A DNA stretch of 64,000 bases, taken from the NCBI GenBank assembly GCA_030149525.1, contig JASBRJ010000327.1:1-64000 (forward strand), in the 5' to 3' direction. Positions 15,040 through 58,339 of the stretch are shown one piece after another. The notes beneath the pieces are model-generated. The model made no database searches, had not been told where the DNA came from, and saw nothing but the letters and a program-made list of their open reading frames with translations. Both the position numbers and the translations under genes were made by a program. This stretch comes from a bacterium (GTDB lineage: Bacteria; Vulcanimicrobiota; Xenobia; Xenobiales; JADMJV01). The first letter of the stretch is position 1, and every line of letters starts with the position of its first letter.

Positions 15040-15200
15040 GGGGTCCGTATAGGCGCCTTCAGGATCGGACCGGGCGAAACACGACGTCCTCTGGTTGTCC
15101 AGGGAACCCAGCAGTTCTAGTGTCGCGGACTCTAGGCACTTCCGTGCCTCGGGTCGGCGGCTTGGGCTCGGGTCGATGGCTTGGGCTCTCGCAACCCGAA

Positions 15201-15715
15201 CAATTCCGCACCGTCCCGCATGCAAGCCTTTAGGCGCTACGAAGTTTCGTGCCGCTCCGTGTTGAATTGACCCAACTCGTGCCGCAACTCGACGCCTTAG
15301 CCCCGCGAAACTCAAACAATTCCACACCATCCCGCATGGGCATGCCGCCCCGTGTGGAATTGACTCAACTCATACCGCAACTCGACGCCTTAGAACCCCA
15401 AAACCCGGAGAATTCCGCACCATCCCGCATGCAAGCCTTTAGGCGCTACGAAGTTTCATGCCGGTCCGTGTGGAATTCACTCAACTCGTACCGCAACCCG
15501 ACGGCTTGGGCCAGGCTCTATGGTTTGAGCTCTCGCAACCCAAACAGTTCCACACCATCCCGCATGCTCATGCCGCTCCGTGTGGAATTGACTCAACTCG
15601 TGCCGCAACTCGAGGCCTAAACCCGCAATACCCAACCAGCACCTCAACTCGACGCCTTCCGCAAAACCCGAACCCGCTTCTCAACTGGATGCCCTAGCCC
15701 GGCGAAACTGAGCTA
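15201..15715. repeat. left cluster of palindromic repeats (four units)
   Basis: Each unit has inverted arms CAATTCCACAC and GTGTGGAATTG around a loop containing CATCCCGCATGCTCATGCCG or a variant. Units lie at 15201-15269 (long loop), 15317-15362, 15411-15477 (long loop) and 15545-15590. Each is followed by a conserved spacer (ACTCAACTCGTGCCGCAACT then CGACGCC). The two long-loop units share an insert with GCAAGCCTTTAGGCGCTACG. Arms vary at one or two bases between units, partly compensated. No protein-coding gene is seen from 15040 to 15717. Confidence 0.85.
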
Positions 15716-15717
15716 TG

Positions 15718-16512
15718 CTAGCTTGCTCTTCGACTTCTTGTCAGATCTTGACACAGTGAAATGACGTCTTGCGCACGAAATCTCGTCACCGGTAGCCCCA
15801 GCTCCCTTTCCCGTTCCAAATCGCTTGCTGGGTCATGGCCCCGACCATCAAGTTCGATGACCGACCAACTACCGTCCCAACGGAGTATGTCGACTCTCAT
15901 AACCCTCGAAAGATAGAAACTGACCTGAAAAAAGTGAAAGCTACCATCCAAAACAAAACAAGGCCTCGGATTGAGTCCGGTCAACCTCCGTCCCGTGTCG
16001 TCTACGATCGGCTGATGCAGTCGACCTAGAGTTTCCGGAGCAATCAAGGCAGATTTCGCTCCACTCGCCTGAAGAAAAAGAAGATAAAGAGCCTCAAGCC
16101 AAGATTCACATGAAATACGATGAGAAATTGCCCGACAAGCATCCGAGTCCTCTCTGCTATGCACCATTGAAGTTAGTTGGGCTGTGAGTATTGGCACTCG
16201 CCGTCGGCAAGCATTATATCGCGTATGAGTCGTTCGGTCTTGATTGCTGAAATAAGGCTTTCGACACTCTACTAGTCTGGCCCCATTGCTAAGAAGCGTC
16301 CTTGTGATTGAGTAGGGAGGCACAAAGCAATCACCCAATCCAAGTAGCGCCGAGAGCTTTTTCTTCTCGTTATTCGTTGGGCGACGATGCCCACATTCAA
16401 GGTTGGACCAGCGGGTTTGAGAAATTCCTATCAGCTCGCCCGCCTGTTTTTGAGTCAATGACAACTCCAGCCGGCGCTCTCTCATTCTTAAGCAAAAAAG
16501 CGGTTTAAACAT
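15718..16512 (-). CDS. XRE-type HTH protein with a C-terminal nuclease-like domain
   Basis: 264 residues. Residues about 10-58 form an XRE/Cro-type helix-turn-helix (SLTQKQAGELIGISQTRWSN, then LECGHRRP). The middle 130 residues are Arg- and Cys-rich and unrecognised. The last 70 residues (RVDILRW, then VIELDGRGHDPASDLERERE, then LPVTRFRAQDV) resemble the DUF559/Vsr-like branch of the PD-(D/E)XK nuclease fold, with a D...ExD arrangement and the usual trailing R-x-R-F-type strand. No strong ribosome site is seen; ATG 16485 is an alternative start. It sits alone between two clusters of the same palindromic repeat, with a perfect inverted repeat just upstream. Function is inferred, not known: perhaps a sequence-specific nuclease or an orphan regulator. 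Confidence 0.6.
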   Translation of the reverse strand: MFKPLFCLRMRERRLELSLTQKQAGELIGISQTRWSNLECGHRRPTNNEKKKLSALLGLGDCFVPPYSITRTLLSNGARLVECRKPYFSNQDRTTHTRYNACRRRVPILTAQLTSMVHSREDSDACRAISHRISCESWLEALYLLFLQASGAKSALIAPETLGRLHQPIVDDTGRRLTGLNPRPCFVLDGSFHFFQVSFYLSRVMRVDILRWDGSWSVIELDGRGHDPASDLERERELGLPVTRFRAQDVISLCQDLTRSRRAS

Positions 16513-16538
16513 GCTCTAAGACTAACCGGCAAATTTAT

Positions 16539-16563
16539 CATCAATATTTCCAACATATTGATG
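16539..16563. promoter_or_regulatory. perfect inverted repeat upstream of the XRE-type gene (candidate operator)
   Basis: CATCAATAT and ATATTGATG form a 9-bp perfect inverted repeat with a 7-base spacer, in a locally AT-rich stretch 27 bases upstream of the gene start. XRE-type proteins commonly bind such sites and repress their own gene. Confidence 0.5.
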
Positions 16564-16650
16564 TTCTATGAAGACCAGTTTGCTAAAGTATTAACAACCC
16601 TGATTTGTCGATGCTTGAGACGTCTCTAAACCCAACCCCAAAACCCGAAG

Positions 16651-17060
16651 AATTCCGCACCATCCCGCGTGGTCATGCCGCTCCGTTTGGAATTGACTCA
16701 ACCCGTGTCGCAATCCGAGTCCTAAACCCCGCAAGCGCCTCAACTCGCCGCCTTAGCCCCGCGAAACCCAAACAATTCCGCACCATCCCGCATGCTCATG
16801 CCGCTCCGTGTGGAATTGACTCAACTCGTGCCGCAACTCGATGCCTCAACCCCACAAAAACCCGAAACCGCGCCTCGACTCCACCCTCAACACCCCGAAA
16901 CCCAAACAATTCCACACCATCCCGCATGCTCATGCCGCTCCGTGTGGAATTGACTCCACCCGCACCGCAACTCGACGCCTCAACCCCACAAAACCCGAAC
17001 CCGCACCGCAACTCGACGCCTTAACCCCACAAAACCCAACCACCACCTCAACTCAACACC
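16651..17060. repeat. right cluster of palindromic repeats (three units plus spacer copies)
   Basis: The same repeat family and orientation as the left cluster: units at 16651-16694, 16773-16818 and 16907-16952, followed by two further copies of the spacer motif (GCACCGCAACTCGACGCC type) to about 17025. There is no gene between 16564 and the csrA-kinase stop at 17158. Confidence 0.85.
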
Positions 17061-17157
17061 CCAACCCCCCACCATTCCACGACGAACTGTGAGTTCACAT
17101 ACGAAAAAGAAGCCCTGACGAGCTTCTTTCCTAAACTCCAACTGAACCGGTTCGGCT

Positions 17158-18210
17158 CTACTCTTCGACGATCCGCAATTTGGGATAGGCTCGCTTAAGC
17201 GCTTCGAATTCGTCGAGATTTTCCGCCAAGAGGACGCGCCAGCCTTCCTTCTCCAGCGCCTTGTGACGGGCACCGTGGAACTCCCCCCGCAGAATGAGCA
17301 TGCCCTTCTCCTCAACGGGGTCGTCCACAACTGCTGGGAAAGTCATTCTGACGGTGGTTCCTCGGCCGGGGGCCGATTCTACAAACAGCTGGGCCTTGAA
17401 GGTCTCCAACCAGTTTCGTACATAGCAGATTCCAAGCCCGCGATGCCGCCCTTTGGTGGTGACGAAGGGATTTCCCAATCTACTAAGCGTGCTGCGGTCA
17501 ATTCCGTTCCCATCATCCTCAACGGTGACGATAAGTCTTTCGTTGGCCCAAGCAGCCCTAACATCAATTCTTGTAGCCTGCGCCTCTACACTGTTGTGAA
17601 AGAGATGCGAGAGAGGGAACTCCCAGCCCGGCGTGGTGGCACGGAACTCGTCGTCGACCATACAGTTGACCGACACAGTGGCATCACCACAGTCATCCTT
17701 CAACAATTGACATGCGACTTCAAGACCGTCTTTCAACGGCTTGGTCACCCCTTTGACAAGACTTCCTCGCCCCAAGAAACCAAGAGAACGGCTCCAGGCC
17801 TTCATCTCCCGAACATTGGATTCGGCGGTTTCAAGACTCTCCTTCAGCTCGCCCTCCGGACAGTCCAACAATGAAAGTTGGAGCTCGCCATGAACGGGCG
17901 TGAGAAGGTTGCGAATCTGATGAGACGCCCAACGAGCCACATCACCGTAGCCGCTCAGGAGCGGAACCTCGACTTTGTTCCTTTTGGAACCGAAGCTTTG
18001 AGAATGCTTTTGAAGAATCCCCGCATCCAGAGCCAGAGAGGCCAGGTTCTGCTGCTTGACTTTCTCCAGCAACTCGCCTCGGACAACAGGAATCCTGTTG
18101 GGCGCAACGATGCCGAGTCGAACAGAATCGTTCTTGGCTCCAAGGATTCGAATCTCAATGTCGTCGCCCACATGAACCGACTGATTTGATCTTCTAGATA
18201 TAACTAGCAT
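17158..18210 (-). CDS. CsrA fused to a histidine kinase
   Basis: 350 residues. Residues 1-70 are a complete CsrA: MLVISRRSNQSVHVGDDIEI, VRLGIVAP, with RNA-contact positions Arg6 and Arg44 kept (the usual His43 is Val). The following KQQNLASLALDAGILQ resembles the C-terminal extension by which Bacillus CsrA binds FliW. Residues about 88-292 form a full histidine kinase: H-box ASHQIRNLLTPV (His97), N-box HLFHNSVEA (Asn206), G1 EDDGNGID, G2 RGLGICYV. A 55-residue tail of unknown role follows. CsrA is normally a 60-75-residue stand-alone mRNA-binding regulator of flagellin translation. The ATG overlaps the fliW stop by seven bases. I infer signal-controlled CsrA activity. The reading frame is continuous, with no stop between the modules. 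Confidence 0.88.
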   Translation of the reverse strand: MLVISRRSNQSVHVGDDIEIRILGAKNDSVRLGIVAPNRIPVVRGELLEKVKQQNLASLALDAGILQKHSQSFGSKRNKVEVPLLSGYGDVARWASHQIRNLLTPVHGELQLSLLDCPEGELKESLETAESNVREMKAWSRSLGFLGRGSLVKGVTKPLKDGLEVACQLLKDDCGDATVSVNCMVDDEFRATTPGWEFPLSHLFHNSVEAQATRIDVRAAWANERLIVTVEDDGNGIDRSTLSRLGNPFVTTKGRHRGLGICYVRNWLETFKAQLFVESAPGRGTTVRMTFPAVVDDPVEEKGMLILRGEFHGARHKALEKEGWRVLLAENLDEFEALKRAYPKLRIVEE

Positions 18211-18641
18211 GCCTGCTCCATCGGCTCAGCCAGAGAGTAGTCACTCTCCTCCAAGATCACTTGCTCACCACAACGTCCATTCTGATGCAACACCAGAGGG
18301 GCCGCTAGATTGAGCGTCAAACCGCTCTCCCCCGGGGCCACCACACAGTAGACTGCCACTTCCCCATCGTCGGAAACTCCCAAGCGGTCCATGGTCTGAG
18401 CCGACACCCTGGGTTGGTATTCCGGGAAGTAGCGCCAAGGGTCCACCAGAGGGAGACAAACATGACTCTCCTCCATGGACTGGAGCCAGGCGAAGGGTTG
18501 AAACTCCTCGAACTTCAGCAGCACGTAGTTTTGACTTTTCTCAAATCCCGGAAGCGGAGCTTCGAATTTAAAGAGGGCTCCCGGATCCACAGTCAGTTGT
18601 CCAAAGCGATCAGATTTTATTGCCAAAGCGCTCTCAATCAT
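18204..18641 (-). CDS. fliW: flagellar assembly factor FliW
   Basis: A 145-residue FliW-family protein (GFEKSQNYVLL, FAWLQSMEESHVCLPLVDPW, YCVVAP, LNLAAPLVLH). FliW binds either flagellin or CsrA. When flagellin is exported, free FliW sequesters CsrA and flagellin translation resumes. Here it is encoded between flgL and the CsrA-kinase fusion, overlapping flgL by four bases and the fusion by seven, so the switch components are translated together. Confidence 0.93.
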   Translation of the reverse strand: MIESALAIKSDRFGQLTVDPGALFKFEAPLPGFEKSQNYVLLKFEEFQPFAWLQSMEESHVCLPLVDPWRYFPEYQPRVSAQTMDRLGVSDDGEVAVYCVVAPGESGLTLNLAAPLVLHQNGRCGEQVILEESDYSLAEPMEQAC

Positions 18642-19537
18642 CTTAGGTAATTCACCAGACTCAGTTGGGCGTTCTTGCCGGCCATTTGCATTGAAGCTTG
18701 CAAAGAAACCTCTACCGTCAGAGAGCTTGTAATCGCCTCCGTCAGGTCCGTCCCAACCAGACTCTCGTATTCCTTTCTCAAAGTTAGGACTCGCTCTGAA
18801 AGCGACTCATCCAAACGCTCTAGATGTCGGCCGGCACTACCACCCTCGCTGCGGCGCAGAAGAAGATTCTCTTCCACTTTTCCCAGCCGATCGAGGAAGG
18901 CGTCGGAGTCGAAATTTTCTTCCGTTATGGCCTTACGGATCTCAATCCCAAGCGCCATGAGATCCTCGCCTGAGCCCCTGGTGATCGCCTCCCCGTTGAG
19001 AGGGATCTTTAGCTGTCCGCCTCCCGGCAGACTCAAAGGAGGGTAGCCGTTATCCCCGTTATACTGAACGCTCTCAATCTTGCCCCCACCGCGCGTCATC
19101 TCGAACGGCTTGGTCTTGGATTTGTTTCCGCTGTAGAGATAGGTACCATTCACCTCGGTGTTAAGCTGAATAACGTTGGACTCCACCAATCGGTCAGCCT
19201 CAATTGCCAAGGTGTCTGCGACCTGGAATCCTCGACCGTCGCTGCCCCGCTCCAGAACAATAGAGCGCAAAGCCCGAACGTTCTGAGTCAATTGGTCAAG
19301 CACCTGATCACTCTGGGCTAAAAAGTTCTTACCCTGGTCCATCAAGCGACGATCCTGCTCCATGGAACTCACCGTCTTCTCAATCTTCGAGGCCTGGCGG
19401 TAGGCGCTGGGATCGTCACTGGCCCGGTTGACGCGCGTCCCAGTGGCGATCTGCTCCTGCAACTTCTGCAGCGCCTTGCGGTTGTTTTCTATACCGGCTT
19501 GGAGTGTGTCGTGGACTCCTCGGTCATGGATTCTCAT
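18638..19537 (-). CDS. flgL: flagellar hook-filament junction protein FlgL
   Basis: A 299-residue flagellin-like junction protein. The N-terminal D0/D1 region reads LQKLQEQIATGTRVNRASDD, and a C-terminal helical region ends in MAGKNAQLSLVNYLR. It is exported by the flagellar secretion system and joins hook to filament with FlgK. ATG at 19537 overlaps the flgK stop by one base. Confidence 0.93.
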   Translation of the reverse strand: MRIHDRGVHDTLQAGIENNRKALQKLQEQIATGTRVNRASDDPSAYRQASKIEKTVSSMEQDRRLMDQGKNFLAQSDQVLDQLTQNVRALRSIVLERGSDGRGFQVADTLAIEADRLVESNVIQLNTEVNGTYLYSGNKSKTKPFEMTRGGGKIESVQYNGDNGYPPLSLPGGGQLKIPLNGEAITRGSGEDLMALGIEIRKAITEENFDSDAFLDRLGKVEENLLLRRSEGGSAGRHLERLDESLSERVLTLRKEYESLVGTDLTEAITSSLTVEVSLQASMQMAGKNAQLSLVNYLR

Positions 19538-21186
19538 TAGTTCCTCCCGAGATTGATCACAGTACTCAAGATTTCATCGGCGACCGTAGCTACCCGAGCG
19601 GCCGCGGCAAAAGACTGTTGGTAGCGCTCTAACTTCAAAAGTTCTTCGTCGGTGGAGACCGCATGGACAGAATCCCGACGCCCCTGAGCGTCCTCTTCCA
19701 GGATACCCGCCCGCGCTGCCGTGTTTTGGGCCGTGCGTCGAAAGGTCCCGGACCCCGTCCGCATAGCGATAAGACGATCCTCTAGACGTGTGGTATTATC
19801 GAGCGTATTCTGCATGGAGCGAAGGACGCTCCCGTCACCCGGTATGGCCGGTGTGGAGACAGCCGTATCCAGGCCGAGAATCTGAGAAAGATTTCCACTG
19901 TTGTCGGAGACTGTGATATCGGGTGGCCCTGGCACGGTAGGATCTCGTTGCAGGATCACTTTTCCGGTCGCTTCATCGAACTCGGCGATCACTCCGGTAC
20001 CATTGAACTTATCCAGAATCTGAGCCAGCGACTCACCGTCGGACCAGGTCACAAGATTTCCGTTGACGTTCATTTGGCCGGTGGTCGCCGGGGCAACGTT
20101 GAGCGAGCCGCTCTGGGCTGCCAGCGTATTGTCGGCGCTGAAGCTGCCTGTATATATTCGGTCTGGACTTGTGAGACGAGCGGCCGCCGAAGCGAGATTA
20201 TTGGAATCGGTAATGGCAAGTTTGATATCCAGAGCGCCGGTGCCGCTAAACAGATCTCGACCGGTTCCTCCGTCAAGGCCGTAGCCCACACGATGAACCG
20301 CGTTGAGATCGGCCATCAAATTCTGGGCCATAGTATCCAGATCCGATTGGAATCCCGGCAAAACTTCCCGCTGAAAGGACACCAGAGCCCCCAGGGAACC
20401 CTCGTCGACTTCCAGCACCTGGCCGGCCTCATTGAGTAACTGATTATCAGAGTTCAGGGTAAGATTTTCATGGTGATCCCCGAAGAGAATCTGGCGTCCG
20501 TCGAGGTAGACGGCCATGGCGCCGCCCTGCTGCTCCACAAATCGAACCTCGGCAATGCCGCTGAGTTTGTCCATCAAAGCATCCCGCTCGTCTAAAAGAG
20601 CGTTCTTACCGGAAGTCTTGCCCCAGGCGGGCATCCTCTTGTTCAGATCGGCAAGCTGCGCCAAAGTGGAGTTAAACTCTCCCACCTTGTCCTGGAGCCT
20701 CTCTTGGGACTCTTCACCAACGGCGCTCAAATCGCGAGAACTCGAGCGAAAGCGCTCGGTGAGGTCTTCCATTTTCTGAAAAAGATCGGCTCGAAGTGCC
20801 TGATCGTCGGGGCGATTAGCCACCTCAAGCAAGCTCAAACGCACGTCTTGAGCCGCTTCTGTCAAGCCCGCTCCCTCGCCGAGGGTGGATTCCAGGCGTT
20901 CGGCCAAGGAATCGATAGAGCGAGCTCCCTCCGCTTCCGTGTGATAGGAGCGGAAGGCTTTATCCAGCAAGGCGTCTCTTGTTCGCTCAAAGCCTTCTAC
21001 GATAACGCCTAGACCGTGGGTGTGATTGGTCAAACGTTGTTGGGCAGGACCCACGTTCTTCACTAACGCGGTTTGCCGCGTGTAGTTGGGGTCTTGCGCA
21101 CCGGAAATATTCCGGCTGGTTATCTCCACCTGCAGTTTTGCAGCGAGGAGAGAACTTGAGGCTATATGAAGCGAGTTGAGACTCAT
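19537..21186 (-). CDS. flgK: flagellar hook-associated protein FlgK
   Basis: A 549-residue protein with the FlgK N-terminus (LHIASSSLLAAKLQVEITSR, NISGAQDPNYTRQTA) and C-terminal rod-like motif (LLKLERYQQSFAAAARVATV). It forms the first hook-filament junction zone and is exported by the flagellar secretion system. It overlaps flgN by four bases at the 5' end and flgL by one at the 3' end. Confidence 0.95.
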   Translation of the reverse strand: MSLNSLHIASSSLLAAKLQVEITSRNISGAQDPNYTRQTALVKNVGPAQQRLTNHTHGLGVIVEGFERTRDALLDKAFRSYHTEAEGARSIDSLAERLESTLGEGAGLTEAAQDVRLSLLEVANRPDDQALRADLFQKMEDLTERFRSSSRDLSAVGEESQERLQDKVGEFNSTLAQLADLNKRMPAWGKTSGKNALLDERDALMDKLSGIAEVRFVEQQGGAMAVYLDGRQILFGDHHENLTLNSDNQLLNEAGQVLEVDEGSLGALVSFQREVLPGFQSDLDTMAQNLMADLNAVHRVGYGLDGGTGRDLFSGTGALDIKLAITDSNNLASAAARLTSPDRIYTGSFSADNTLAAQSGSLNVAPATTGQMNVNGNLVTWSDGESLAQILDKFNGTGVIAEFDEATGKVILQRDPTVPGPPDITVSDNSGNLSQILGLDTAVSTPAIPGDGSVLRSMQNTLDNTTRLEDRLIAMRTGSGTFRRTAQNTAARAGILEEDAQGRRDSVHAVSTDEELLKLERYQQSFAAAARVATVADEILSTVINLGRN

Positions 21187-34871: not shown

Positions 34872-35026
34872 TTCAAAGCGGAAGGAGTTCTCCCGGGGCT
34901 CGCTCCTAAACAAATTTTTTTCGCCCCGTAATACTCTGGAACGCACCAAAGGTGCAACCCGACGGACAAGGATGTCGGTCGTCCGGCAGGAGCCTGGAAG
35001 AGAGCATCAAGGAGGAAGCAAACAAA

Positions 35027-36862
35027 ATGGGTTTTAGAATCAACCAAAACATCGGAGCCATGGTGGCTCTGAACAATCTGCAAAAGAACGACATGGGCAT
35101 TAACAAGTCCATCGAAAGGTTATCGACCGGTCTGCGTATCGTACGCGCCGCCGACGACCCTTCCGGACTGGTAATCTCAGAACGTTTCCGCGCGCAGGTC
35201 GAAGGTATCGGCCAGGCAGTCAGAAACTCGCAAGACGGTATCAACATGGTGCAAACCGCTGAGGGTGCCCTCGACGAGGTGAGCAACATTCTACGTAACA
35301 TGCGTAACGTTGCGCTCCACGCTGCCAACACCGGTCCCAACGACGCAGACACCCTGCAGGCTGACCAAAACCAAATCGGAGAAGCTATCAAAACTTTGGA
35401 CAGAATCGCTTCCACCACTCAGTTCGGTGCGAAGAAGATTCTGGACGGCTCTGCCGGTGTTCAAGGTACTGTATCTAGCGCCGACCTCGGTTTCGTCAGC
35501 GGCACAACCGACACTCAGGCAGGTACCTACACGGTAGACATCACAACGGCGGCAGCTCGTGGCTCTCTTACCAGTCACGCCAGTGGTACGGCAGCCGGCC
35601 GAACTGCAGCACGTGTGAGCACCACCGGTACCGGTGCTGCCCTTACCGCGGCCGAGACCCTGACAATCTCAGGGACTAACGTGGACGACCCTATCAGCAT
35701 CGACCTTTCTCTTGGCGCCACTGCCAACGATATTCGTGATGCTATCAACAACAACGCAGACGCTCAGGCTCTCGGGTTGACGGCCTCTGTTGTGGGTGGT
35801 CAGATCCAGTTGGACCAGGACCGCCTGGGAAGCGGAAACACCTCCGAACTCGACATTGCCATCACCAATAACGGTAACGGTACTGCCGCATTCGGTGCCG
35901 GTAGCGTGGCCAGCACAAGCGCGGCCACCGGTGCAACCAAGTTTGCTGAAGATGAGCTTCTCACTTTCAGCAACGGTTCCAACCAGGTGAACGTCGCCAT
36001 CACCGCGGGTACCTCGATGTCCGCGGCGGTAAGCCAGATCAACAAAGCTCTGGACAACGCCTCCATCGGCATCACCGCTTCCTTCGACAACAGCACGGCT
36101 CAGTTCACCCTGACCAACGACGAGTACGGTGGTTCCTCCACCGTCAACAACACCTTCAGCTCCAACAGAGCCGGTGCCAACTCAACCGGTCTGGCCCTCT
36201 CTGCCGGCTCCAGTATCAACCTGGCTAACGCCAACACCGCAGTGGGTGGCGCAGCTGGTACTAACGGTGCCGACGTAGCTGGAACCATCGGCGGAAACGC
36301 TGCTACCGGATCAGGACAGTTCCTGACCGGTAACGCCGGTACCGCTGTCGACGGCCTCACCCTGAAATACACCAGTAACGTAACAGCTGGTGCCGACCAG
36401 GGCTCAGTGACCGTCACCAACAACTCCCTGAACTTCCAGATTGGTGCTTTTGCCGGTCAAACGGCAAGCCTGGCTATCAGCAGCATGGCTTCCACCAACC
36501 TGGGAACCGCCGCTTCCGGCACGACCACGCTGTCCAGCGTCAGCCTGGCCAACATCGACGTGACCTCCTTCAACGGTGAAGGCGCCCAAGACGCTATCCG
36601 CGTAATCGACGACGCCATCTCCCAGGTCACCGAACTCCGTTCCCAACTGGGTTCCTTCCAAAAGGACATCCTGGAAAGCACGGTATCGACCCTCGGTGTA
36701 GCCAAGCAAAACCTGGCCTCCAGTGAATCGAACATCCGTGACGCAGACTTCGCTGAAGAGATGATGAAAAACTCTCGAAGCCAGATCCTGAGTCAGACCG
36801 GTATGTCGATGCTCACCCAGGCCAACCAATCCGGCCAGGCCGTCATGTCCCTCTTCCGATAA
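35027..36862 (+). CDS. fliC: flagellin
   Basis: 611 residues from ATG 35027, with GGAGGA 11 bases upstream. It has the conserved N-terminal D0/D1 region (LNNLQKNDMGINKSIERLST, GLRIVRAADDPSGLVISE) and C-terminal region (SSESNIRDADFAEEMMKNSR, ending QSGQAVMSLFR). The central 350 or so residues are a Ala/Thr/Gly/Asn-rich variable region with Flagellin_IN-like repeats (TLTISGTNVDDPISIDLSLG). It is exported to build the filament, with FliS as chaperone, and is the probable target of the FliW/CsrA switch. Confidence 0.97.
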   Translation: MGFRINQNIGAMVALNNLQKNDMGINKSIERLSTGLRIVRAADDPSGLVISERFRAQVEGIGQAVRNSQDGINMVQTAEGALDEVSNILRNMRNVALHAANTGPNDADTLQADQNQIGEAIKTLDRIASTTQFGAKKILDGSAGVQGTVSSADLGFVSGTTDTQAGTYTVDITTAAARGSLTSHASGTAAGRTAARVSTTGTGAALTAAETLTISGTNVDDPISIDLSLGATANDIRDAINNNADAQALGLTASVVGGQIQLDQDRLGSGNTSELDIAITNNGNGTAAFGAGSVASTSAATGATKFAEDELLTFSNGSNQVNVAITAGTSMSAAVSQINKALDNASIGITASFDNSTAQFTLTNDEYGGSSTVNNTFSSNRAGANSTGLALSAGSSINLANANTAVGGAAGTNGADVAGTIGGNAATGSGQFLTGNAGTAVDGLTLKYTSNVTAGADQGSVTVTNNSLNFQIGAFAGQTASLAISSMASTNLGTAASGTTTLSSVSLANIDVTSFNGEGAQDAIRVIDDAISQVTELRSQLGSFQKDILESTVSTLGVAKQNLASSESNIRDADFAEEMMKNSRSQILSQTGMSMLTQANQSGQAVMSLFR

Positions 36863-54239: not shown

Positions 54240-55286
54240 TTAGCCTGCCTCCAACTCCACTCGATTCTTACCCGATCTTTTCGCCCGGTAGAGGGCCTGA
54301 TCGGCTCTTTCGATGATGGAATCCCGGGTATCACCCGGTCGAAACTGAGCAACACCCATGCTGATAGTGGTGCGGACCCTTTTCACCTGTCCTGAAACAG
54401 TCAGCAAAAGATCGATTCCGGCGATAGAGCGCACCAGTTGCCGCCCCCTTTTCAGGGCTAAGCTTCGCGTCACTCCGTTGAGGATAATGACAAACTCCTC
54501 ACCGCCGTAACGCGCCACCATATCGGTGTTCCTGGTCATCTTGACACACTGTCGAGACAGCGCCTTCAAGACCGCGTCACCCGCTTTGTGTCCATAGCTA
54601 TCATTGAGCTTTTTGAAATTGTCCACATCCCACATGAGAATCGCGAACTGGCTCTCATCCAGGACTCCCCGCTCGACCAACTTGGTGAGAAAGTCATCCA
54701 TGGCTTCACGATTGGCAACTCCGGTGAGTGGGTCGGTTCGCGATTTGTCGATGGCCTGCCTGAGATCGAAGTTCAACTTCTGAATCTCCGCCTTCATGGC
54801 CTCAACATCCACATCCTTATTCTGGCGTTGACTGGCCACCTCTTCACGTATGGAGGTCACCTGCTGAGAAAGCTCCTCGCGAATTTTGCGGATGTCCTCG
54901 AGCTTACACATTTCATCGAGTTTGTCGGCATAGGACTCCACCTGATCCTCAAACCGGCTGGAACCGTCCAGGAGTCCTCGCAACTGCTCCGTTAAACCGA
55001 GCACAATCTTGCGAAACTCCTGGTCTCTTTCCACCAGATACTCTTGCTCTCTCCGGCTTTGCAAGAGACTCATGGCTTTGCAAGCTTGAACCGTCTTGTT
55101 GTAACGCTTGGGATCCCAAGGGTCCTTGCAAAGTTCTTGCTGCAGAAGATCGATGGTCTCAACGAATCTATCGTTACTGACCTCCTTCAAATCGTGACTG
55201 AAGCGCTTCAGGCAGCACAGCAGTATCCTAATAGTCTCAATGCACGAAGCATTGCGATCGGGCACCTGTCCCTTCAGTGTTAGCAT
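54240..55286 (-). CDS. GGDEF protein (probable diguanylate cyclase)
   Basis: 348 residues. The first 175 are helical and coiled (LEDIRKIREELSQQVTSIRE) with no domain I recognise. A GGDEF domain follows, with active-site RYGGEEF and an I-site RNTD five residues before it; DPLTGVANREAMDD and SYGHKAGDAVL are also conserved. It should make c-di-GMP with product inhibition. It overlaps the hybrid kinase upstream by seven bases, so the two are probably co-translated, and it sits between flgB and fliI on the opposite strand. Confidence 0.9.
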   Translation of the reverse strand: MLTLKGQVPDRNASCIETIRILLCCLKRFSHDLKEVSNDRFVETIDLLQQELCKDPWDPKRYNKTVQACKAMSLLQSRREQEYLVERDQEFRKIVLGLTEQLRGLLDGSSRFEDQVESYADKLDEMCKLEDIRKIREELSQQVTSIREEVASQRQNKDVDVEAMKAEIQKLNFDLRQAIDKSRTDPLTGVANREAMDDFLTKLVERGVLDESQFAILMWDVDNFKKLNDSYGHKAGDAVLKALSRQCVKMTRNTDMVARYGGEEFVIILNGVTRSLALKRGRQLVRSIAGIDLLLTVSGQVKRVRTTISMGVAQFRPGDTRDSIIERADQALYRAKRSGKNRVELEAG

Positions 55287-58200
55287 GCGTCGTCTTCCTC
55301 TTCTCTTTCTAGTTTTCCAATAAGTTTTTCCACTGCTGAAGCGATCTCTTGGAGTTCAAAGGGCTTGCCGATAAAGCCGAGGAGCCCCTCATCCATGATC
55401 TCCTGAACAGTTTGGTTGTGACTGTAGCCGGTGGATAGAATCGCCTTCACATCGGGATTGATGGAGCGAAGAGCCCGAAAGCATTCCCGGCCGTCCATGC
55501 GGGGCATCATCATGTCGACTATCACCAGGTCGATATACTTGTAGTTGGCCGCATAGTACTCGACCGCTTCCTGGCCGTCTTCCACGGTGATCACCTCGTA
55601 GCCGATTCTCCGAAGCATCTTGGCTGCGATATTTCGCACGATCTCCTCGTCGTCGATGACAAGTATTTTGCCTTTACCGCTCAGGATTGTGGGCGCGGCT
55701 TCCTGCTCTTTCTTGCCCTCGAACTCCGAAACCGGGAAGTAGAGAATGAAAGTGGTCCCTTCCCCGACCGCGCTGTCCACATGGATCCAACCGTCATGAT
55801 TCTGAACGATTCCGTAGACCATGGCCAGGCCCAACCCGCTGCCCTTCTCTTTGGTGGTAAAGAAGGGCTCGAAGATCCTCTGCAGTTGTGCCTCGGGAAT
55901 TCCACACCCGGTATCCTCCACGCGGATCTCCAGATACTCCTCGTAGGCCTGATTCTGAAGCATCGGCTCAGTGATCTGGTCTCTTCGCAGATTGCGAGTA
56001 TAGATGGTCAGCCGACCGTTCTGATCAATGGCGTGAGTAGAGTTGATGGCGAGGTTGAGCAGAACCTGGCCTACCTGCCCGGAGTCTCCAATGATCCACG
56101 GGTTCTCAGCATCCAGAACCCCCTCGATAATAATCCGAGGATCGGTGGTTCTGGTGAGTAAGGTGAGCACTTCGGCCACACTTTCGTGAATGGAGAAGGC
56201 CTCGTGCTTGTGCTTTCCTTGTCGCGCAAAGCCTAAGAGCTTCTGAGTCAAGTCGGCTGCCCTGCGAGCGGCTCTTTCGATCACATCGGCTGCTTGTTGA
56301 ATCTCCTGCCAGGTCGAAACCTCTCCTTTGAGTAGGCTCGAGTAGCCGAGAATTCCACTCAACAAATTGTTGAAATCGTGGGCCACACCGCCGGCCAAAG
56401 TGCCGATCGCTTCCATGCGCTGGGCCCTCATGAGACGCTCTTGCATAGCCACTTCGGCGGTCACATCCCGCTCCGACCAGACCAGATTCGACATGACCCC
56501 GTCGTGATCGCGAACGGGGGAAACGGTCAGCTCAACATACTTGATCTCTTCTTCACTGACTTTTCGGGTGCGACGACCCGACCAGACAGCCCCTTGAGCG
56601 ATGGCGTTCTGAATCGGCTCTTCGAAGATCATGTCGTAGACCGACCCCAGGGGGCTCTCTTTCCCTTCTCCGAAGTTGCGTTCAAAGGCCGGATTCACAT
56701 ATTCTAAGTGACCCTCAAGGTCGGTGATGGCGATAGAATCGGAGAACTGCTCCACCGCTGCAACGAGTCGCTCTTTTTCGCCCTCAAGCTGCTTGTGGAG
56801 AGTGAGATCTCGCATGGCGCCGCGACAGCCCAAGTAGTTTCCGCTATCGTCGTAGACAGGTCGACTCTTATAGGCGAGCCAACGAACCCCCCCGCTCCGA
56901 TCAATAATGCGAAACTCAGCTTCCAGAAAATCATCCGACATTTCCTCGTCGGGTTGAGGAACCAGTTGGACGTCTTCCGGATGAGCGATCCGGTGCAAAA
57001 AGTCGACATCCATCTCGAACTCGAAGGGATCGTAGCCTGTGATCTTCTTGCAAATGGGCGAGGAGTAGAGAAAGTGACCCTGGGGTGAACGCCAGAATTC
57101 CCAGTCGTGGGCGTTCTCCCCCCGCATACTGAAGGCGTTATCCTCGTGGGAGGAGATAGCTTCGTAGGTCTCAGCCGCCATCTCAAGCCCTTTCACCACG
57201 GCAACCGTACAGGTTTCCAGACCGTAGTTGATGGGACTCTGGTGAATGTTCACCTCGCTGGTTCTTCCGGTACAGGCAACGAGGGAGGCTTGATAGACCG
57301 AGAATAGGCCTTCGCTCCAGCCGTTTCCAAAGGTCTCCTCCAGATCGTCGGCCACGATAAAGTCGGCCACTCGCCGCCCTACAAGACTCGCAGCACTGGC
57401 ACCCAAAAGGGTTGTTGTGGCGTCGTTGACCGCTTTGATCTGACCCCTTTGATCGTAAATGATGGCGGCATCGGGTATGGCTTCGAAGATCCCGCGAAAG
57501 GACTCTTTCTGACTTCGAAGCTCTTCCTTTTGATACTCCACCAGGTCTTGAAGTCGAAACAGAGCCCTGACCCGACTCATCTTCTCGGTGAGACTGACCA
57601 CATAGTCGGGTTCGGCATTACAGCGAACGCAAGCATCGGCACCACGTCTCAAGAGATCGACCTGTGAACCCTGCCAACCCTCATCAAGAACCACCAGGTT
57701 GGCGTTGAAACTCGCCTCCTGACGCTCTCGCCTGAGAACCTTATCCAACACTCGTCCCTGGTGATCATGATCGATGATCACAACAGCGGGCTTCCAGACC
57801 TCCAGGTGCTTCAAGGCAAGCTCCGCGTCGGACTCTTCCAAAACCTCGTAGCCGAAACGCCGAAAGCAGTTGGCCAAACCACGGAACTTCTTGCCTGGAA
57901 AGGGAATGAGTAAGAGCCTCGTCCTGATGGAGGGGATCTCTCCGGTGAGCAGATCTTTCACACAACGGATCAACTCCGCCGAGGTAAAGGGCGCTCTCAA
58001 GAGAGCGTTCGCGCCCAGTCCAGCCGTCAGGCTCTGGGCTTCCTCGCCGCAAAAAACAGCTGAGGTGGCGAGAACAGGCGTGTCGTTATAGGGACCATAC
58101 TCTCTCGATCGGACCAGTCGACACAGTTTCCACCCGTCCACTTCCGGCATGTGGAGGTCGGTCACAATGAGATCCGCTCTCTCCCTCCTGTCAAGGTAGG

Positions 58201-58339
58201 CAACAACCTCGGCCCCGTTGGAAAACCTCAGAACCTCTAAATTTTGCTTTTCAAGGATTCGCGAAATACGGAGAAGCTGAGTCCGGTCGTCGTTGACAAC
58301 CAGAACACGGTAGTTCTCCTTTTTGAAATGCGCGTTCAA
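55280..58339 (-). CDS. hybrid histidine kinase (receivers-PAS-kinase-receiver)
   Basis: 1,019 residues. An N-terminal receiver (Asp61, VTDLHMPEVDGW), a second receiver-like domain (VVIIDHDHQGR), three PAS-type domains over about 285-650 (IFEAIPDAAIIYDQRGQIKA, HEDNAFSM-to-AMRDLTLHKQ, AITDLEGHLEYVNPAFERNF), a kinase core with H-box LAGGVAHDFNNLLSG, N-box LLNLAINSTHAI, G1 VEDTGCGIP and G2 GSGLGLAMVYGI, and a C-terminal receiver (IVDMMMPRMDG, KPF). No membrane segment is seen, so sensing is cytoplasmic. It probably signals through its receivers, perhaps to the diguanylate cyclase encoded next to it. Confidence 0.92.
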   Translation of the reverse strand: MNAHFKKENYRVLVVNDDRTQLLRISRILEKQNLEVLRFSNGAEVVAYLDRRERADLIVTDLHMPEVDGWKLCRLVRSREYGPYNDTPVLATSAVFCGEEAQSLTAGLGANALLRAPFTSAELIRCVKDLLTGEIPSIRTRLLLIPFPGKKFRGLANCFRRFGYEVLEESDAELALKHLEVWKPAVVIIDHDHQGRVLDKVLRRERQEASFNANLVVLDEGWQGSQVDLLRRGADACVRCNAEPDYVVSLTEKMSRVRALFRLQDLVEYQKEELRSQKESFRGIFEAIPDAAIIYDQRGQIKAVNDATTTLLGASAASLVGRRVADFIVADDLEETFGNGWSEGLFSVYQASLVACTGRTSEVNIHQSPINYGLETCTVAVVKGLEMAAETYEAISSHEDNAFSMRGENAHDWEFWRSPQGHFLYSSPICKKITGYDPFEFEMDVDFLHRIAHPEDVQLVPQPDEEMSDDFLEAEFRIIDRSGGVRWLAYKSRPVYDDSGNYLGCRGAMRDLTLHKQLEGEKERLVAAVEQFSDSIAITDLEGHLEYVNPAFERNFGEGKESPLGSVYDMIFEEPIQNAIAQGAVWSGRRTRKVSEEEIKYVELTVSPVRDHDGVMSNLVWSERDVTAEVAMQERLMRAQRMEAIGTLAGGVAHDFNNLLSGILGYSSLLKGEVSTWQEIQQAADVIERAARRAADLTQKLLGFARQGKHKHEAFSIHESVAEVLTLLTRTTDPRIIIEGVLDAENPWIIGDSGQVGQVLLNLAINSTHAIDQNGRLTIYTRNLRRDQITEPMLQNQAYEEYLEIRVEDTGCGIPEAQLQRIFEPFFTTKEKGSGLGLAMVYGIVQNHDGWIHVDSAVGEGTTFILYFPVSEFEGKKEQEAAPTILSGKGKILVIDDEEIVRNIAAKMLRRIGYEVITVEDGQEAVEYYAANYKYIDLVIVDMMMPRMDGRECFRALRSINPDVKAILSTGYSHNQTVQEIMDEGLLGFIGKPFELQEIASAVEKLIGKLEREEEDDAC

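Follow-up and report, generated by a model that had tools for sequence, protein, structure and literature searches.

Two-component systems usually act on CsrA through small RNAs that sequester it. The CsrA/RsmA and FliW systems of the Bacillus, Campylobacter and Geobacillus type share with the locus described here the conserved CsrA core residues, the FliW contacts V51 and N55, an adjacent fliW gene, and a flagellin leader with a GGA hairpin plus a Shine-Dalgarno site. In the genomes read here, however, CsrA usually has 55-110 residues, whereas the protein found in the window (the whole stretch of 64,000 nucleotides that was analysed) adds a 265-residue kinase-like tail. This tail shares a DHp hairpin, His97, the Asn at +4 and the GHKL ATPase fold with the ZraS/AtoS/NtrB-type HisKA kinases, but a presumably RNA-binding CsrA replaces their sensor. 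The fusion of CsrA to a kinase module is real, and it is an architecture of known parts that is undescribed as far as searched. No CsrA-kinase fusion was described in the open-access papers searched, and within that literature the statement in the preliminary description that none was known is borne out. With a kinase-type module and CsrA in one chain, a signalling domain would be linked to mRNA binding by the shortest route possible. The gene and its neighbours are laid out as follows.

17158..18210, minus strand: csrA-HK fusion gene (350 aa); no other CsrA was found in the genome
18055..18210, minus strand: CsrA domain, residues 1-52 (Pfam; family-invariant columns)
17959..18054, minus strand: CsrA C-terminal extension and linker, residues 53-84 (alignment; PMC7829508)
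17770..17958, minus strand: DHp-like helical hairpin, residues 85-147 (Pfam, alignment and structure model)
17922..17920, 17919..17917 and 17910..17908, minus strand: His97, Gln98 and Asn101, respectively
17329..17745, minus strand: catalytic/ATP-binding (GHKL) domain, residues 156-294 (N206, DxGxG, PF-TTK, GLG)
17161..17313, minus strand: truncated receiver-like tail, about residues 300-350 (structure model)
18204..18641, minus strand: fliW (Pfam FliW, E 3.7e-32), with a 7-base overlap with the csrA-HK start
18638..21186, minus strand: flgL and flgK, in one gene row with csrA-HK and upstream of it
17103..17130, minus strand: terminator-like hairpin followed by a U-run, just 3' of the csrA-HK stop (RNA fold)

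The csrA-HK gene reads through 350 codons of the minus strand (18210..17158) as one open frame, which confirms the earlier claim that a continuous frame runs from CsrA to kinase. Pfam places both CsrA (PF02599, residues 1-52, 67.6 bits against a cut-off of 27) and HATPase_c (PF02518, residues 200-293, 61.4 bits against a cut-off of 26.4) in this frame. HisKA matched residues 95-137 but with its 19.2 bits did not reach the cut-off of 26.9, and His97 is present at the phospho-acceptor position. Overall, a CsrA domain (1-52) precedes a histidine-kinase-like module (85-294). A plus-strand reading of 17158-18210 was rejected, its frame being interrupted. The gene closes the minus-strand row flgK-flgL-fliW-csrA, and the position of its start codon is set by the overlap with fliW (GGAGCAGGCATGCTAG). 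The hairpin and U-run at 17103..17130 were not flagged by a consensus terminator scan. The CsrA half is the sole CsrA found in the 8.27-Mb genome, as searched in a draft assembly of 398 contigs, so the fusion CsrA cannot simply be a spare copy.

All of the family-invariant CsrA positions are kept in the alignment (L2, R6, G15, V30, G33, A36, P37, V42, R44 and E46); the RNA-binding residues R6, V42 and R44 and the core glycines are thereby retained, with Arg6 and Arg44 present as the preliminary description had stated. In Campylobacter, V51 and N55 of CsrA bind FliW (PMC7829508). Both contacts are kept in the fusion, V51 just before the extension and N55 within it, and likewise in the proteins of a sister genus, which supports the proposal that the extension is FliW-binding-like. 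A CsrA was taken to be FliW-controlled when V51 (or Ile) and N55 stand in an extended C-terminal helix and fliW is present, and the fusion has V51, N55 and an adjacent fliW. The CsrA half has the look of a functional repressor of flagellin under FliW control, and the CsrA side of the fusion is well supported.

The candidate target lies on the other strand of the window.

35027..36862, plus strand: flagellin gene (Pfam Flagellin_N, 1.5e-37)
34960..34981, plus strand: putative CsrA site CGACGGACA-AGGA-TGTCGGTCG in the flagellin leader, 45 nt before the ATG
34983..34997, plus strand: second GGA-loop hairpin of the flagellin leader, CCGGC-AGGA-GCCTGG, absent from the leaders of the relatives
35010..35015, plus strand: Shine-Dalgarno AGGAGG of flagellin (includes GGA), conserved

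The single perfect ACAAGGATGT of the 64-kb window falls in the flagellin leader, within the AGGA-loop hairpin, and this sequence is close to the CsrA selection consensus of the literature. The flagellin leaders of three relatives (G002, G003 and G004) have a hairpin at the same place, with differing stems and a loop of AGGA or CGGA. Each leader hairpin taken singly is matched by 1-3% of shuffles, and those of the host and the three relatives jointly argue for a kept CsrA site. The flagellin leader, which had been named as the RNA to be tested, is a plausible target. Taken together, these observations speak for a CsrA-FliW-flagellin circuit like that of Bacillus but fall short of proof. In G004 (L053) the leader GGA-loop hairpin is retained, although a search of the 97%-complete genome turned up neither csrA nor fliW; this may reflect a recent loss or an assembly gap.

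In the kinase half, the DHp helices are predicted at 85-116 and 121-147. The fold was predicted from a kinase-only alignment, since a joint alignment of CsrA and kinase misplaced kinases onto CsrA, and it is closest to ZraS (best PDB fold match 9jfj); the nearest relatives by sequence are AtoS/ZraS/NtrB-like. In the N, G1, F and G2 boxes, N206, D232, G234, G236, F249, G258, L259 and G260 are kept. Unlike the ZraS/AtoS/NtrB-type kinases, the fusion has Gln at H+1, a His (His256) for the first G2 glycine, and a truncated receiver-like tail. HisKA kinases normally need an acidic residue at H+1 for kinase activity; the position is Glu or Asp in 26 of 28 related fragments aligned (a few of which overlap the same gene) and Gln98 in the fusion. 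CrdS with an E-to-Q change at H+1 had no kinase activity but kept its phosphatase activity, and NtrB E140Q gave a kinase-minus phenotype with phosphatase competence kept; a Thr or Asn at H+4 is required for phosphatase activity in HisKA kinases (PMC3510030). The H+4 residue of the fusion, Asn101, is retained. The C-terminal tail is predicted to fold, over residues 303-347, as beta-alpha-beta-alpha-beta, resembling the first half of a receiver, and has no phospho-acceptor Asp; a hybrid kinase would carry a complete receiver with that Asp. A Pfam search with the C-terminal 57 residues gave no match, and a frame-shifted remainder of a receiver downstream of csrA-HK was rejected, none being found in any frame. 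In a related kinase, a response regulator stands directly behind the kinase. Judged by these motifs, the kinase half is probably not an ordinary kinase, and it is likely to be kinase-deficient, ATP-binding and possibly phosphatase-competent.

CsrA is present in 101 of the 149 genomes searched of the host phylum, and among these 149 it bears a kinase tail in this genome alone. Other long CsrA frames of the phylum were rejected as fusions, the readable ones being short CsrA; the frame in G069 runs off its contig end. A sample of 148 genomes of a second phylum has CsrA in 61, one of them as a CsrA-FliW fusion and none as a CsrA-kinase, and a whole-protein search of 395 genomes of this second phylum gave only kinase-part matches among the five candidates scored per genome. 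No relatives were found in viral contigs, and a plasmid search for relatives returned ordinary kinases only. L002 was also rejected as a relative, being an ordinary kinase in a genome where no CsrA was found. The single-chain CsrA-FliW fusion at L102:600-1160 (minus strand), in a genome of another phylum, likewise has an N-terminal CsrA with a partner domain joined after the same extension, but that partner is FliW itself and not a kinase module.

G002 and G003, two genomes of the sister genus, have a CsrA that runs into a half VOC/glyoxalase module (L033:9229-9681, plus strand, and L034:8000-8500, minus strand). The gene order is that of the host, with CsrA after fliW, and the tail joins at about residue 75-80; it is a VOC tail there, whereas the host has a kinase-like one. 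PilZ and hybrid-kinase genes come next at both loci. The VOC tail has weak Pfam hits in both genomes, its best PDB profile matches are bleomycin-resistance and glyoxalase proteins, and its model is a confident beta-alpha-beta-beta-beta fold that matches FosA and bleomycin-resistance folds; one VOC module is followed by a truncated second. Both tails would suit a homodimeric CsrA, because VOC modules pair and DHp domains pair. The CsrA-VOC fusions agree with the view that the tail is an exchangeable addition to CsrA. It is conceivable, if somewhat doubtful, that CsrA in this bacterial family serves as a base on which C-terminal modules that are themselves dimeric can be exchanged, with a kinase-like ATPase in the host genus and a half VOC domain in the sister genus, each of which wires a signal directly into the translational control of flagellin. 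The parallel in the sister genus makes the gating of CsrA dimers by attached dimeric domains testable.

The explanation that we favour, tentatively and at a little short of even confidence, is that the protein represses flagellin under the control of FliW and carries, as an addition, a dimeric regulatory module that binds ATP and tunes CsrA. The fusion, as the host's only detected CsrA, would act as a homodimeric translational repressor on the GGA hairpins of the flagellin leader, and FliW would antagonise its CsrA half. The ZraS/NtrB-type DHp-ATPase would lie next to the FliW-binding helix as another homodimeric unit that binds nucleotide, and by changing its conformation with nucleotide or partner it would tune how CsrA binds RNA, FliW or both; that the two halves are coupled allosterically, and in this direction, we infer. 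Given the HQxxN motif, the module has probably lost its autokinase activity or retains little of it, and it may still act as a phosphatase on a response regulator. Against this explanation stand the single genome assembly, with no second species that has the fusion, and the low confidence with which the CsrA part and linker are modelled (pLDDT below 50 at 36-86). CsrA also occupies the usual sensor place of kinases, and the opposite direction of signalling fits equally well. CsrA would then be the sensor, with occupancy by FliW or flagellin mRNA switching the module, a phosphatase (or weak kinase) acting on a response regulator, and so reporting flagellar assembly to transcription. The N-terminal position of CsrA agrees with such a role, as do the kinship of the module to AtoS/ZraS, a group that works with NtrC-type regulators, and the H+4 Asn needed for HisKA phosphatase activity. 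However, no cognate regulator was identified, no continuous signalling helix leads from CsrA to the DHp domain (the linker is predicted, at low confidence, to be disordered), and the sister genomes have CsrA-FliW without the kinase. We regard a sensor role of CsrA as rather unlikely and prefer a tail that acts on CsrA, because in both genera it is a dimeric, ligand-binding module that is joined to CsrA, and at the same point.

The preliminary description had gone further, proposing a complete and fully active histidine kinase whose phosphorylation state directly sets mRNA binding by CsrA. His97, Asn206, the G1 box and the core of G2 are indeed present, and in their known families both modules form dimers. 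Both claims are weakened, however, because the acidic H+1 residue is a Gln, the change that was kinase-dead in CrdS and gave a kinase-minus phenotype in NtrB. With Gln98, His256 in place of the first G2 glycine and a receiver-like tail without Asp, the module is therefore not a complete kinase by motif, and its HisKA match lies below cut-off; an active kinase of this kind is improbable. A recent and functionally neutral fusion, in which CsrA works as usual and a decaying kinase tail is tolerated, would agree with the occurrence in one genome, the motif substitutions and truncated receiver tail, and the repeat-rich DNA just downstream of csrA-HK. It is nevertheless distinctly unlikely in view of the intact 350-codon frame, the kept GHKL invariants, the coding-like codon positions, and the tail domain that the sister-genus CsrA likewise bears. 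The draft state of the assembly, with its 398 contigs, raises the question of a chimera in which csrA was joined to an unrelated kinase fragment. A false assembly join requires shared sequence, and a repeat in the kinase part could not have caused one, since the next closest counterpart of the kinase half within the genome is just 29% identical. Neither half has a second copy at the join, the CsrA-like extension and linker align with the sister-genus proteins to about residue 83, GC by codon position is coding-like in all segments of the gene, and csrA-HK overlaps fliW cleanly and ends in a terminator-like element. An assembly join at the CsrA/kinase boundary is unlikely, and a chimera of this sort seems to us very improbable indeed.

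Derivation of the kinase half from another kinase of the same genome was rejected on the 29% identity of the best match, and the hybrid kinase at 55280-58339 was rejected as its source, being no closer than others. The product of that minus-strand gene has the domain order REC-PAS-kinase-REC and is a relative of the hybrid kinase that G002 and G003 encode downstream of csrA; in the host the gene lies elsewhere in the flagellar cluster and adjoins a gene for a GGDEF protein. A cluster of repeats, each about 130 bp long and 60-88% identical, flanks an HTH gene (15718-16512) on either side at positions 15173-17060 of the window. Outside this locus the repeats are almost absent; contigs C131 and C278 hold weak copies.
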